DNA of 39,898 nucleotides from Candidatus Saccharimonadota bacterium (GTDB taxonomy: Bacteria; Patescibacteriota; Saccharimonadia; Saccharimonadales; Saccharimonadaceae). The position numbers and the translations under genes are program-made. How positions within the stretch are numbered: position 1 is the first letter of the stretch; every line of letters starts with the position of its first letter. The notes beneath the pieces were generated by a model. The model was given only the letters and a program-made list of their open reading frames with translations. It had not been told where the DNA came from and searched no databases. Below are positions 1,301-5,886 of this stretch, piece by piece. Where the stretch lies: assembly GCA_017404685.1 (NCBI GenBank), contig JAFRBW010000036.1, positions 1 to 39,898 of the forward strand. The letters are read 5' to 3'.

Positions 1301-1417
1301 ATGAATAAAACGTTTAAGCGAGGTTTCATGAAAACAATAAACAAAATTATCTTCAAAACCGCGGCGCTGGTTTTAGCAACCGTGATTTTGGGTGCGGGGG
1401 GGGGTATCACTATTTAG
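1301..1417 (+). other. Signal-peptide segment of the DGR target, currently out of frame
   Basis: From the ATG at 1301 (or the in-frame ATG at 1328) a typical export signal is encoded: a basic start (KTINKIIFK) followed by a hydrophobic run (TAALVLATVILGAG). Translation then enters nine Gs at 1396-1404 and stops at TAG 1415-1417 after 38 codons. If the run had ten or seven Gs, the frame would continue through YHYLVEDAHADSASAS into the large protein whose open frame covers 1474-3519; AHA-D would be a plausible cleavage site. What is seen is the frame break and the signal sequence. Phase variation is inferred; a sequencing or assembly error in the homopolymer is the main alternative. Confidence 0.75.
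1396..1404 (+). repeat. Poly-G tract (G9) in the signal peptide
   Basis: Nine consecutive Gs inside the signal-peptide coding region of the DGR target. G8-G10 runs of this kind are the classic substrate of slipped-strand mispairing in contingency loci. With nine Gs the gene is OFF; seven or ten would be ON. Confidence 0.85.
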
Positions 1418-1473
1418 TTGAGGATGCACATGCGGATTCTGCTAGTGCGTCTGTTTATAACGACGAGAGCGAA

Positions 1474-3519
1474 GTGGATATAGATTCCAATTTTTCGATC
1501 CACGTGGAGGAGGTGAATGCTCTAGAATTAACGCTATCGGAAACGCAGATAGAGATTGATCTTGCGCCGGATATTAGTAGGCCAGATTTTGATTCCGAAG
1601 ACCTGCGTGTGATCGTGGGCACGTCTAATACAACTGGCTATAGCCTGATCATGACTCCTTCGTATAATAACGTCGTCACTACGGATTTGACGCGGACTGA
1701 AGCCATTGGTAACGTGCGGCCAACGATCGCGACACTTTCGTCAACGGTGACGCCGGCGATTTTTGCTTCGGATTCGGATACTACCACTACTAATAAGTGG
1801 GGCTATATGGTCACGACTACCAACCTTAGCGTAGATAAGACCGTGTATTCTCCGATGCTCACGTCTAACGTTGTGAATAGGAATACGACGGTGACTCCTG
1901 GGGATTATACCGATCTGACGTTTGGTGCGAAAGTGGATAGCACGACGCCAGCGGGCAGCTATCTTGTGACGCTAAACTTTAACGCGACGGTGAATCCTGT
2001 AACGTATAGTATTGCGTATAATATCGGTAATAATAGCGATGAGGGGAATATCGTCTTGCCAAGTCCAAATCCACAGACTGGGGCGCTCGCGAGCTCCATG
2101 ACTACGTCGGTGCCGATTTCTTCGACCATGCCGACACGGGTGGGGTATGCTTTTGGTGGCTGGTGTACAGTGATGCCAACGACGGCGAATAACAGCGATA
2201 GCTGTGTGGGCGGGACGACTTATGGTGCCGGCAATAGCATCGACATTGCGCTTACGGAACCAGATGTGACGCTCTATGCAATGTGGAACATTAGCTCGTT
2301 CTCTTGCGCAAAGCAATATAGATTACAGAATGCGGATGGTACATATCCAAGTAGCTATACTTCGGTGACCGGTGAGGATTTGCCATATGGTAGTACCTGT
2401 ACTTATGAACAAGCTATGATGGATTACACAACGCAATCTACTACTGGCACGGTGGGCGTGAATGGTGTGACGCTGTCGCTTGATCTACCAAGGACGACTT
2501 ATGCTCTCACGGTAGATAAGGATAGTACATACATTGATAGCGTAACTGGCGCTGGTACATATAGGTGGGGAGAGACAGTGACGATTACGGCTACGGAAGC
2601 GGCAAATAGCGAGTTTACGACTTGGGAACAGACGGCTGGTACTACGAGCAGCTTTGCTGATGCAACGAGCGCGTCCACGACCTTCACGATGCCAAAGAGC
2701 GCTGCGACGGTGAAGGCGAATGGTAAGACTTCACTCACGACCTTTGCTCAAGCTTACGCCGCGGCTAACAAATCACAATCTGGCGGGTATTACACTATGC
2801 AGGATATGACTAGCTCAATCTGTGCTGCAGTTACGGTTGGCCAGACAGCTACGCTTAGGGATACGCGCGATACGACAGATTATCTAGTTGCCAAGGCGGC
2901 AGATGAGAATTGCTGGATGCTTCAGAACCTCAAGCTCGGCTCCAATTCCACTAGCCTCTCGCTCACTACTGCAAATTCTACTGTATCATCTAGCGGCTTC
3001 ACGCTCAGCAACAAGCTAAGCGATGGTAAGTTCCCACGCGCATCTAGTACTTCTGGAACGGATGCGTACTACCAATATGATGGCTCTGCTTACTACTGTA
3101 CTAGCGACTATGGCTGCTACTACAACTGGTACACTGCCACGGCAGGCTCCGGTACTGGCTCGGTATCTTCTGGCAACGTAAGCTACAGTATTTGCCCTAA
3201 AGGCTGGAATCTCCCAACTGGTGGCTCTAATGGCCAATTCCAAACTCTTTATAACCAATATAATTCCGCATCGCTAATGCTAGTAGATAGCCCTACAAGC
3301 ACCAAAGATAACACGGCTGGTAAGATTCCTGGTTTCCTCCTCGGCGGCTACTACGTCGCCAGTGGCGCCGGCGGCGTCGGCAGCGGCGGTTATTACTGGT
3401 CCCGTACGGCCTACAGCGCGAGGTACGGTTACGGCCTGGGCCTCGACACTTCGAGCGTGTACCCTGCGTACTACGGCGGCAAGTACCTCGGGTTCGCCGT
3501 GCGGTGCGTAGCGGTGTAG
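1474..3519 (+). CDS. DGR target: secreted InlB-repeat / C-type-lectin-fold surface protein
   Basis: Large surface protein (681 aa from GTG 1474; about 740 aa if joined to the signal peptide at 1301). Domains in order: an N-terminal beta-sandwich module (to about residue 175) shared with the protein at 24018; an InlB-type beta-grasp repeat (about 178-275, with GYAFGGW and VTLYAMW); a second, divergent InlB-like repeat (about 340-415); and a C-terminal domain (about 425-681) with SICPKGWNLPT and the ending FAVRCVAV, as in the Fibrobacter-succinogenes-major-paralogue/FGE-like C-type-lectin fold used by known DGR targets. The last 63 residues are the variable repeat. Its ligand-binding loops are rich in Tyr and Gly, as is usual after adenine mutagenesis of AAC codons. 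GTG 1474 is only the first start codon available in the open frame; the true start is most likely 1301 across the G tract. The likely role is attachment to a host or other cells, which is inference. Confidence 0.85.
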   Translation: MDIDSNFSIHVEEVNALELTLSETQIEIDLAPDISRPDFDSEDLRVIVGTSNTTGYSLIMTPSYNNVVTTDLTRTEAIGNVRPTIATLSSTVTPAIFASDSDTTTTNKWGYMVTTTNLSVDKTVYSPMLTSNVVNRNTTVTPGDYTDLTFGAKVDSTTPAGSYLVTLNFNATVNPVTYSIAYNIGNNSDEGNIVLPSPNPQTGALASSMTTSVPISSTMPTRVGYAFGGWCTVMPTTANNSDSCVGGTTYGAGNSIDIALTEPDVTLYAMWNISSFSCAKQYRLQNADGTYPSSYTSVTGEDLPYGSTCTYEQAMMDYTTQSTTGTVGVNGVTLSLDLPRTTYALTVDKDSTYIDSVTGAGTYRWGETVTITATEAANSEFTTWEQTAGTTSSFADATSASTTFTMPKSAATVKANGKTSLTTFAQAYAAANKSQSGGYYTMQDMTSSICAAVTVGQTATLRDTRDTTDYLVAKAADENCWMLQNLKLGSNSTSLSLTTANSTVSSSGFTLSNKLSDGKFPRASSTSGTDAYYQYDGSAYYCTSDYGCYYNWYTATAGSGTGSVSSGNVSYSICPKGWNLPTGGSNGQFQTLYNQYNSASLMLVDSPTSTKDNTAGKIPGFLLGGYYVASGAGGVGSGGYYWSRTAYSARYGYGLGLDTSSVYPAYYGGKYLGFAVRCVAV

Positions 3520-3580
3520 CCTAGTAGCTCGCCTGGGCGGGGGCGCCACTAGTTTCCCTAGTGGTCCTGTCCCCGTCCCG
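3330..3580 (+). repeat. DGR variable repeat (VR) with initiation-of-mutagenic-homing region
   Basis: This 251-bp stretch is the inverted partner of 5636-5886. All 29 differences from the template fall in 3349-3494, in 18 codons, at first or second codon positions; 28 are substitutions at template adenines and one is G to A (AGC to TAC). The last 86 bp (3495-3580) are identical to the template and contain a G/C-only-like stretch (about 3529-3547) and a hairpin, as expected for the IMH that fixes the 3' boundary of cDNA replacement. It covers the 3' end of the target gene and 61 bp beyond its stop. Confidence 0.96.
3546..3564. other. Hairpin/cruciform downstream of the VR
   Basis: CCACTAG (3546-3552) and CTAGTGG (3558-3564) form a 7-bp stem with a 5-nt loop that reads GGAAA on the minus strand. 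The Bordetella phage DGR needs a similar GAAA-loop hairpin just after its VR for efficient homing, so the same job is inferred here. Confidence 0.7.
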
Positions 3581-3646
3581 TTTTCTCCTCCGGAAAAGAT
3601 AGAGTGAATGCGTCAAAGAATGTATCTCGAATAATGAAGTAATAAT

Positions 3647-4486
3647 GTGAGTTGCACAAAAATGGAAAAAGCATCTATAATCTCAGGAAAGCACGCTGGA
3701 ACCAACGTGACTGGTGATGCCGCGCGCGAAAGATACTATGATCTGAAACGAAGAGTATTGGGTTGGGAAAAGAATAACTACACGCGACTTGCGGTGATTA
3801 AAACAGGCAATGGGTGGTACAAAATGTTTGGGCATTCCGCAATAGTTTTCGTGTGTCAGATAGCAAAAAGATTAGACATTCCAGCAGAGCTGGTTTCTGA
3901 TTCTGACTACGAACAGACTTCAGATGAACCAGTGTATTTGTTCAAGGATCTCGCAAAACTAGAAGGCCGACTAAAGACGCTGAAGATATTTCGTTCGAGT
4001 AGCGAAGACGGTGTGATGGTGTTTGACCTTGGATACAAGGTGGATGCTGCTGACCTGGTGGCAATGCAAAAAGAAGACCAGCTGGTGCGAGAGCGCGCGA
4101 ACAAACTGGTGCTACCGAAGGAGATATTTCCGGGATATCGCAATGAGCTGAGGATATTGCTTGGGTCGATCTACGAAATCGTGCGGAAGCAAAATGGTGT
4201 GGCGCGCGAGCTGTGTGGAAATAGTATGATGTTGATATGCTCCAGGATGATGGAGAATTTTATTGAAGCGGCAAATGGGCATGCGGACATGAAACAATAT
4301 ATGAAAACATCGGTGAAAGATTTACGGAGAATTGATGCGAAGCTGTTCGTGATGTCTGAGTTGAGGTTGGAAACTGATAATAAAATATACAACACAATGC
4401 TGCAGGTGGCGAAAACACAGAAAAAGGCGGCGGGCGCACTGCAGAAGCTAGATCATAAAGGGAATACAAGTGAAGAAGCTCACTAG
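3647..4486 (+). CDS. DGR accessory protein, apparent MutS-I-like / Avd-like fusion
   Basis: This 279-aa protein lies between target and RT and overlaps the RT start by 17 bp, so the two are probably co-translated. The N-terminal part (about residues 20-110) contains GNGWYKMFGHSA, which resembles the GDFYELF segment of MutS domain I (the mismatch-binding domain). MutS-like accessory proteins have been reported beside some DGRs. The C-terminal part (about 150-275) is all alpha-helical, with a spacing (MENFIEAANG, DLRRIDAKLFVMSELRL, YNTMLQVAK) like the Avd/23S-IVP four-helix bundle that binds template RNA and RT. No ATPase motifs of full MutS are present. The start is unsure: GTG 3647 opens the frame, ATG 3662 is the first ATG, and neither has a clear ribosome site. 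Both domain calls are by eye. Confidence 0.65.
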   Translation: MSCTKMEKASIISGKHAGTNVTGDAARERYYDLKRRVLGWEKNNYTRLAVIKTGNGWYKMFGHSAIVFVCQIAKRLDIPAELVSDSDYEQTSDEPVYLFKDLAKLEGRLKTLKIFRSSSEDGVMVFDLGYKVDAADLVAMQKEDQLVRERANKLVLPKEIFPGYRNELRILLGSIYEIVRKQNGVARELCGNSMMLICSRMMENFIEAANGHADMKQYMKTSVKDLRRIDAKLFVMSELRLETDNKIYNTMLQVAKTQKKAAGALQKLDHKGNTSEEAH

Positions 4487-5573
4487 AAGATGGCTAAAAA
4501 GAGAGCTATATAAAGCGTATCTGGAAGCGCGCAAGCATAAAAGACACACGAAAGATGTGTATCTTTTTGAACAAAATCTGGAAGCGAATTTGGATCAGCT
4601 CTGCGAGGATTTGTTTATGAGGCGATATAAGCCTAGTAGGGGAATTGCTTTTATTATTAAAGTACCAGTGATGCGTGAGATTTTTGCGGCACCGTTTCGG
4701 GATAGAATCGTGCATCATTTTCTTTACAATATGTCGTATTATTGGTGGGATAGGAGACTTGAGAATGATTCGTATTCTTGCAGGAAAGGCCGCGGGACTT
4801 TGTTTGGGATAAAACGGCTACAACATTTTATTAAGAGTGTGTCGCGGGACTATACGCAGAAAGCGTATGTGGTGAAGCTAGATATCCAGGGATATTTTAT
4901 GAGTTTGTCGCGGAAAAAGTTGTACGAACGCGTGTGCTGGGGGCTAGATATGCAATTTTCTGAAGAGCGGAGTATGAGGGGGTTTCTGAAATATATTTGG
5001 GGTGAAGTGATTTTTGATGATCCGTGTAAGGGTGTGTTTATACGCGGATCTAAGAAAGATTGGCGGAGGTTGCCGCGATCGAAAAGTCTTTTTCGTCAGC
5101 CGCCTGGGTTTGGAATTGTGATTGGGAATCTGTCTTCGCAGCTTTTGTCGAATATATATCTTGATGCGTTAGATAGATATGTCGTGCATGAACTTGGGTA
5201 TAAGGCATACGGAAGATATGTGGATGATTTTTTTATTGTGGTGGATGAGGCGCATTTGGCGCAGCTGAAAGAGGATGTGAAAAAGATAGAGAGATTTTTG
5301 AAGGAAGAGCTTTGCCTTACGTTACATCCGAATAAGCGTTATTTGCAGGAGGCACACAAGGGAGTGGAGTTTCTTGGTACGGTGATTTATCCGGGACATA
5401 TTGGGGTGACAAGGAGATTTAAGAATAATTTTTATAAGGCTGCGGCGGAAGTATCGATGGGATATAGAGATGTGGCGTCGATGGCGTCGTATCTTGGGCT
5501 GGCGAAACATTATGATGTAATGAAGTTGGCGAAAGATGTTTTTGAGTGGTATGGGTGGGATTATTATTACTAG
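4470..5573 (+). CDS. DGR reverse transcriptase
   Basis: RNA-directed DNA polymerase that copies the TR RNA with errors at adenines. The 367 aa are typical for a DGR RT. Visible motifs: RT1 (residues ~55-85, KVPVMREIFAAPFRDRIVHH); RT2a/3 with KLDIQGYF near 135-145; the DGR-type motif 4, IGNLSSQ, at residues 218-224 (GxxxSQ instead of the GxxxSP of group II introns); the catalytic YVDD at 250-253; and EFLGT near 305. There is no maturase/X-domain or endonuclease. GTG 4470 is chosen because AAAGGGA lies about six bases upstream and the overlap with the accessory gene suggests coupling. The TR lies just downstream on the other strand. Confidence 0.95.
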   Translation: MKKLTRRWLKRELYKAYLEARKHKRHTKDVYLFEQNLEANLDQLCEDLFMRRYKPSRGIAFIIKVPVMREIFAAPFRDRIVHHFLYNMSYYWWDRRLENDSYSCRKGRGTLFGIKRLQHFIKSVSRDYTQKAYVVKLDIQGYFMSLSRKKLYERVCWGLDMQFSEERSMRGFLKYIWGEVIFDDPCKGVFIRGSKKDWRRLPRSKSLFRQPPGFGIVIGNLSSQLLSNIYLDALDRYVVHELGYKAYGRYVDDFFIVVDEAHLAQLKEDVKKIERFLKEELCLTLHPNKRYLQEAHKGVEFLGTVIYPGHIGVTRRFKNNFYKAAAEVSMGYRDVASMASYLGLAKHYDVMKLAKDVFEWYGWDYYY

Positions 5574-5635
5574 AACGTGGTGATTGCCAAGGTTTGGTTG
5601 TAGTCGTTAAGGTTTAGTGGGGCAAATGAAGAAAT

Positions 5636-5886
5636 CGGGACGGGGACAGGACCACTAGGGAAACTAGTGGCGCCCCCGCCCAGGCGAGCTACTAGGCTAC
5701 ACCGCTACGCACCGCACGGCGTTCCCGTTGTACTTGTTGTTGTTGTTCGTAGGGCTCACGCTCGAAGTGTTGAGGTTCAGGTTGTAACCGTTCCTCGCGC
5801 TGTTGGCCGTACGGGACCAGTAATAACCGTTGCTGCCGACGTTGTTGGCGCCACTGGCGTTGTAGTTGCCGCCGAGGAGGAAACCA
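5636..5886 (-). repeat. DGR template repeat (TR), read on the minus strand
   Basis: This is the inverted 251-bp copy of the VR. Read on the minus strand it holds 16 AAC codons, every one altered in the VR. It must be transcribed leftward, because the mutagenised adenines are on the strand that matches the VR coding strand. The arrangement (downstream of the RT and opposite to it) differs from the classic TR-upstream-of-RT order. A minus-strand frame runs through the TR to the same stop as the target gene, but this reflects its origin from a VR, not a gene. Beyond the TR, the RNA would continue into antisense of the RT 3' end, which could serve as the cDNA-priming spacer. Confidence 0.95.
5652..5670. 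other. Hairpin copy at the TR 3' end
   Basis: Same 7-bp stem and GGAAA loop as at 3546-3564, here at the TR. In the phage DGR the hairpin is a VR-side element, so its perfect retention at both repeats is unusual. Confidence 0.6.

Follow-up and report, generated by a model that had tools for sequence, protein, structure and literature searches.

A guanine tract in the signal peptide of a retroelement-diversified secreted protein as a probable phase-variation switch in Saccharibacteria

The retroelement and its target gene

The window, a stretch of 39,898 nucleotides corresponding to contig C24 of a 670 kb Saccharibacteria genome, contains a diversity-generating retroelement (DGR) flanked by prfB (156-1235) and the gene for ribosomal protein L3 (6708 onwards), a core chromosomal place and therefore that of a cellular rather than a prophage-borne element. 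On the forward strand, a target gene whose long open frame ends at 3519 is followed by an ORF of 279 amino acids (3647-4486), by position a candidate DGR accessory protein and without a match in Pfam (up to E=5), NCBIfam or PADLOC, and by an RVT_1 reverse transcriptase (RT; 4470-5573) with the motifs YVDD and IGNLSSQ (G-x3-SQ), both conserved in all eight aligned RT relatives. The nearest RTs are encoded by Ca. Saccharibacteria, mostly from ruminant guts. The variable repeat (VR), with its flanking homology to the template repeat (TR), lies at 3330-3586 on the forward strand and spans the last codons of the target ORF, and the TR lies at 5630-5886 on the reverse strand. The two align over 257 bp without a gap and with 30 mismatches, 29 of them at template adenines and one a G>A change; the coding changes fall between 3349 and 3494, and the VR contains no stop codon. 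Just 3′ of the VR and the stop codon is a DGR hairpin-like structure with the stem CCACTAG/CTAGTGG (3535-3580, forward strand, z = -3.95). With a single TR and a single VR, an RT beside the target, adenine-specific mismatches, a VR at the 3′ end of the ORF and a hairpin, this is a real DGR, and the initial annotation was correct in naming the gene as its target. A second, divergent DGR RT (C20:17415-18506, 51% identical) is present in the same genome, where the region G000:C20:17119-18506 also holds a TR-like repeat and is close to another paralogue of the target family.

The long frame of the target, 733 codons at 1318-3519 on the forward strand, encodes the c-region of a signal peptide, an N-terminal region like that of its paralogues, an InlB-type repeat (PF18998) and a C-terminal Fib_succ_major/FISUMP domain (PF09603/TIGR02145). 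The VR domain belongs to Pfam Fib_succ_major; its AlphaFold model (mean pLDDT 36) is too poor for use and it has no clear solved relative. Surface proteins with a common N-terminal region form a large paralogous family in this genome, and many of the genome's contigs terminate inside these genes. The frame opens just after a TAA at 1315 and has no ATG, GTG or TTG start codon upstream of GTG 1474. From the sequence, signal-peptide cleavage is likely after AHA at 1434, and the mature protein would start with DSASASVYNDESEVD...; its N-terminus ADSASASVYNDESEV, encoded upstream of GTG 1474, aligns with ...FADSSSSAVYGDEGSV of the in-genome paralogues. As residues encoded 5′ of this GTG are conserved in the paralogues, the true gene reaches further upstream, to the tract described below, and the protein normally starts with a signal peptide.

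Upstream, a strong σ70-type promoter is predicted at 1267-1295 on the forward strand, with TTGCAG (1267-1272) and TATAAT (1290-1295) separated by 17 nt. It precedes a short forward-strand ORF of 38 codons (1301-1417) that contains the signal-peptide segment, starts at ATG 1301 and ends at TAG 1415-1417. ATG 1328 shares this frame and is the more likely start codon, as a Shine-Dalgarno-like GAGG precedes it at 1320-1323; the peptide from there, MKTINKIIFKTAALVLATVILGAGGG..., is a good predicted signal-peptide start. The signal peptide is broken exactly at a tract of nine guanines (G9; 1396-1404, forward strand), the proposed slippage switch, with G7 or G10 as ON and G9 as OFF. Promoter, ATG and export signal thus lead into nine Gs and a stop at 1415 as initially annotated, and frame arithmetic bears out the associated claim that seven or ten Gs would fuse them to the open frame: G7 or G10 gives read-through to 3519 (738-739 codons), and 8, 9 or 11 Gs give an immediate stop. 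The site therefore has two hallmarks of a homopolymeric contingency locus, a position (promoter or 5′ coding) at which length sets expression and an intact ORF at another tract length, here G7 or G10.

This tract is the only G/C run of at least nine in the window; the 670 kb genome has two G tracts of that length, of which this one is coding and the other is intergenic and near dnaK. Base composition was dropped as proof that a G9 is improbable, since 0.31 are expected in the window and 22 of 100 shuffles contain one; what is unusual about it is its location, not its occurrence. A reading as a promoter spacer, with TATCACT 3′ of the tract, was rejected because a TTGAC-like -35 box is missing at the right spacing, and the coding reading was kept. 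No second sequence of the locus and no close relative of the gene was found among IMG/VR and GTDB contigs, and the tract itself is presumed to vary in length.

Guanine tracts across Ca. Nanosyncoccus

As a G9 is unsurprising by composition in 40 kb and switching is not demonstrable from one genome, placement was tested in 174 genomes of its genus, taken to be Ca. Nanosyncoccus (Saccharibacteria); 97 of them contain G tracts of at least nine. From 100 fetched regions, picked in listing order and not randomly, 108 tracts were classified, a sample in which genome G001 supplies many intergenic tracts and some loci are paralogues; a fixed classifier, which required flanks of 500 nt or more to either side, retained 89. 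With signal peptides called from hydrophobicity and start codons rather than by a dedicated predictor, reading on the G strand places 24 of the 89 tracts within the first codons of a predicted secreted ORF, and reading on the C strand places 3 there (Fisher 1e-5). The spacer between TTGAC and the -10 box holds 15 of the 89 on the G strand and none on the C strand (Fisher 3e-5). Among 10,000 random positions in the same loci, 511 fall at secreted N-termini and 5 in promoter spacers. Searched across the whole genus, the pattern TTGAC-N-G8+-TATAAT has 17 matches and the reversed pattern none. Tracts of G8 or longer fill σ70 promoter spacers of about 12-20 nt, as at G007:C5:110731-110759.

The 24 N-terminal tracts comprise 10 in frame and 7 in each of the other phases by the fixed classifier, and hand curation by start codon and ribosome-binding site gives 15 in frame and 22 out (binomial P 0.38 against 1:2), so that the proportions are about those predicted by chance. 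In 439 kb of genus loci unselected for tracts, A/T runs of at least nine are absent (147 of length 7 and 6 of length 8), but G/C runs of length 11 and of at least 12 occur as isolated cases. Homopolymer slippage rises in the absence of mismatch repair. MutS (MutS_V, PF00488) was found in none of 40 sampled genomes of the genus but in 11 of 14 control genomes, and MutL (the C-terminal-type family PF01119) was not found in the genome of the window. Contig ends near tracts were considered as a sign of length mixtures (6 against 1.6 expected within 300 nt) and were given little weight because paralogous repeats also break contigs.

Tract length differs between matching flanks in five families, in four of which the flanks are near-identical. 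L177 (G045) has a G9 in frame with the signal peptide and L270 (G001) an out-of-frame G8; the tract is the sole gap in their alignment of 650 bp at 98.2% identity, and L270 is itself a DGR target, with a VR/TR pair of 82 bp and 6 A/T mismatches. Further sets of matching genes have G9 in L168 against G10 in L240, G9 in L188 and L190 against G10 in L189, and G9 in L202 against G11 in L228. Another DGR target, L252 (G019), has a G13 in frame, reading MGKMWDKNKIKIANV-GGGG-HLNRL. Among 45 DGR targets with an intact 5′ end, drawn from 76 distinct VRs, an N-terminal tract of at least eight Gs occurs in three, namely the window gene, L252 and L270, and the combination is therefore occasional. Their long tracts differ in position relative to the hydrophobic segment, which suggests separate origins. 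Shorter tracts are found in L364 (G7 in the signal peptide) and L353 (G7 in the promoter spacer).

In two further loci a C tract on the reverse strand splits the gene between the DGR target and the RT, at 8482 of L284 (G052:C10) and at 2466 of L285 (G048:C2). These tracts, C11 and C8 respectively, occupy orthologous positions and share a phase, and represent either conserved recoding or a switch that acts on the DGR machinery.

Interpretation of the G9 tract

The most probable reading of the G9, at roughly 0.7, is a poly-G contingency locus at which phase variation in the signal peptide would switch a secreted protein that the DGR diversifies. The assembled genome is best read as the OFF state of this switch. 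Replication slippage would alter the number of Gs, with neither MutS nor MutL found to repair it. Lengths of 3n+1 (7, 10, 13) would place the signal peptide in frame with the mature protein and allow export, and at other lengths translation would end at 1415 or an equivalent nearby stop and leave no exported protein. In the ON state the protein would display the Fib_succ_major domain at its C-terminus, encoded by the part of the gene that the neighbouring DGR rewrites. With slippage governing export and the DGR rewriting the C-terminal domain, display would be switched and the binding surface varied in one gene. Switching of the target gene is presumably reversible, cells in the OFF state would be without the exported protein, and in the exported form the domain varied by the DGR may bind something outside the cell.

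The major competing explanation is an error of sequencing or assembly, with a real tract length of ten (or seven) Gs and an unbroken gene. Homopolymers are the commonest class of error. Disagreement of deposited G-tract lengths with the population has been reported, as has an Illumina artefact at G tracts (PMC9187656), and the main remaining doubt is that the length deposited here is perhaps not that of the population. The named relatives, however, are mostly short-read-style assemblies to judge from their contig names (NODE_ or RGIG), yet some 60% of their N-terminal tracts are out of frame, in roughly random phase, and errors would not confine tracts to the G strand at N-termini and promoter spacers. 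Such an error is therefore unlikely, and even at a wrong length the tract would remain a slippage-prone site. The out-of-frame tract is harder to ascribe to recoding of a fixed G9, by programmed -1 ribosomal frameshifting or transcriptional slippage, to yield some full-length protein. The sequence G-GGG-GGG is a slippery heptamer and -1 the usual direction of frameshifting; G9 contains this heptamer and the shift needed here is -1, and the C tracts of the two orthologous accessory genes, out of frame in the same phase, would also suit recoding. Across the genus, however, N-terminal tracts are spread over the three phases and the tracts of near-identical genes differ by 1 or 2 in length, and tracts in promoter spacers cannot act by recoding, all of which makes this explanation improbable.

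The least probable explanation is that the target is a dead gene, killed by a one-base indel and not subject to switching. A single frame break would suffice for this, but the break coincides exactly with the genome's sole coding G≥9 tract, ahead of 733 stop-free codons, with the signal peptide, promoter, RT and accessory gene all intact and with VR changes that are nearly all at template adenines and introduce no stop codon. Relatives with a fixed, non-repetitive sequence at the tract, named in the initial annotation as evidence against a switch, are represented weakly by the seven closest in-genome paralogues, which lack a G tract and have ordinary signal peptides; but these signal peptides are not homologous to that of the window gene, and tract-bearing and tract-free members of the family are mixed throughout the genus. 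The proposal that phase variation and hypermutation are combined as two antigen-variation devices thus stands in part: the relatives lend good support to slippage as a switch at a DGR target's signal peptide, but there is no indication of an antigen role. Adhesion to a host bacterium or evasion of phages fits the lifestyle at least as well, and the protein may act in either of these.

Known systems and implications for Saccharibacteria

Poly-G/C contingency genes are familiar from Campylobacter, Helicobacter and Neisseria, including tracts in promoter spacers such as that of porA. As in Ca. Nanosyncoccus, the G/C tract is located at the 5′ end or between the -35 and -10 boxes of surface genes and mixtures of lengths correspond to ON and OFF states, but these genes belong to unrelated lineages and are not known to be DGR targets. 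The closest experimentally studied parallel is the sortase-pilus switch of Bifidobacterium breve UCC2003, in which one ORF carries the Sec signal and another the remainder of the surface protein, the two being joined by G-tract slippage, and for which switching by such anatomy has been shown and tract-length mixtures measured (PMC9187656). Both organisms are gut bacteria with a G tract between the Sec signal and the protein body; the B. breve protein, however, is a pilin with an LPXTG motif and no retroelement, and its mixtures are measured whereas those of the window gene are inferred.

For the retroelement, the prototype is the mtd system of Bordetella phage BPP-1. The DGRs of Patescibacteria in clade 2 of Roux et al. 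2021 (PMC8144416) resemble the present element in having an RT, a TR, a 3′-end VR with adenine-specific mutation and a hairpin after the VR. No described DGR target was found whose expression depends on a homopolymer within the gene itself. In a gracilibacterium, another CPR bacterium, population-level variation is localised in a hypervariable repeat gene for a surface protein, with slipped-strand mispairing discussed (PMC6851277), but that gene has nine-base repeats and synonymous changes, with no on/off tract and no DGR. Each device is therefore known, and a description of both stacked in one gene was not found: the search, which covered part of the literature and is weak evidence of novelty, yielded no paper treating both a diversity-generating retroelement and a homopolymeric tract. 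Co-mentions of Saccharibacteria and phase variation looked incidental (a reference list only, or a different repeat variation), and poly-G contingency loci in the Ca. Nanosyncoccus lineage seem undescribed.

A broader scheme of two-layer variation can be put forward tentatively for Ca. Nanosyncoccus, in which G/C-tract switches in a MutS-less genome would act on numerous promoters and secreted proteins, among them DGR targets and also, in two of the species, a DGR accessory gene, so that slippage would set both display and rewriting. The genus-wide poly-G loci are a claim that stands apart from the window gene. The window gene also suggests that annotation pipelines may divide or overlook many surface proteins of these bacteria. 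Saccharibacteria, to which this tiny episymbiont-type bacterium belongs, live on the surfaces of other bacterial cells, and little is known of their responses to phages and to variation in the host. If the switch is as proposed, a tiny genome could conceal a diversified protein by combining switched display with a hypermutated binding site, and the OFF state would shield its sequence variants from selection.
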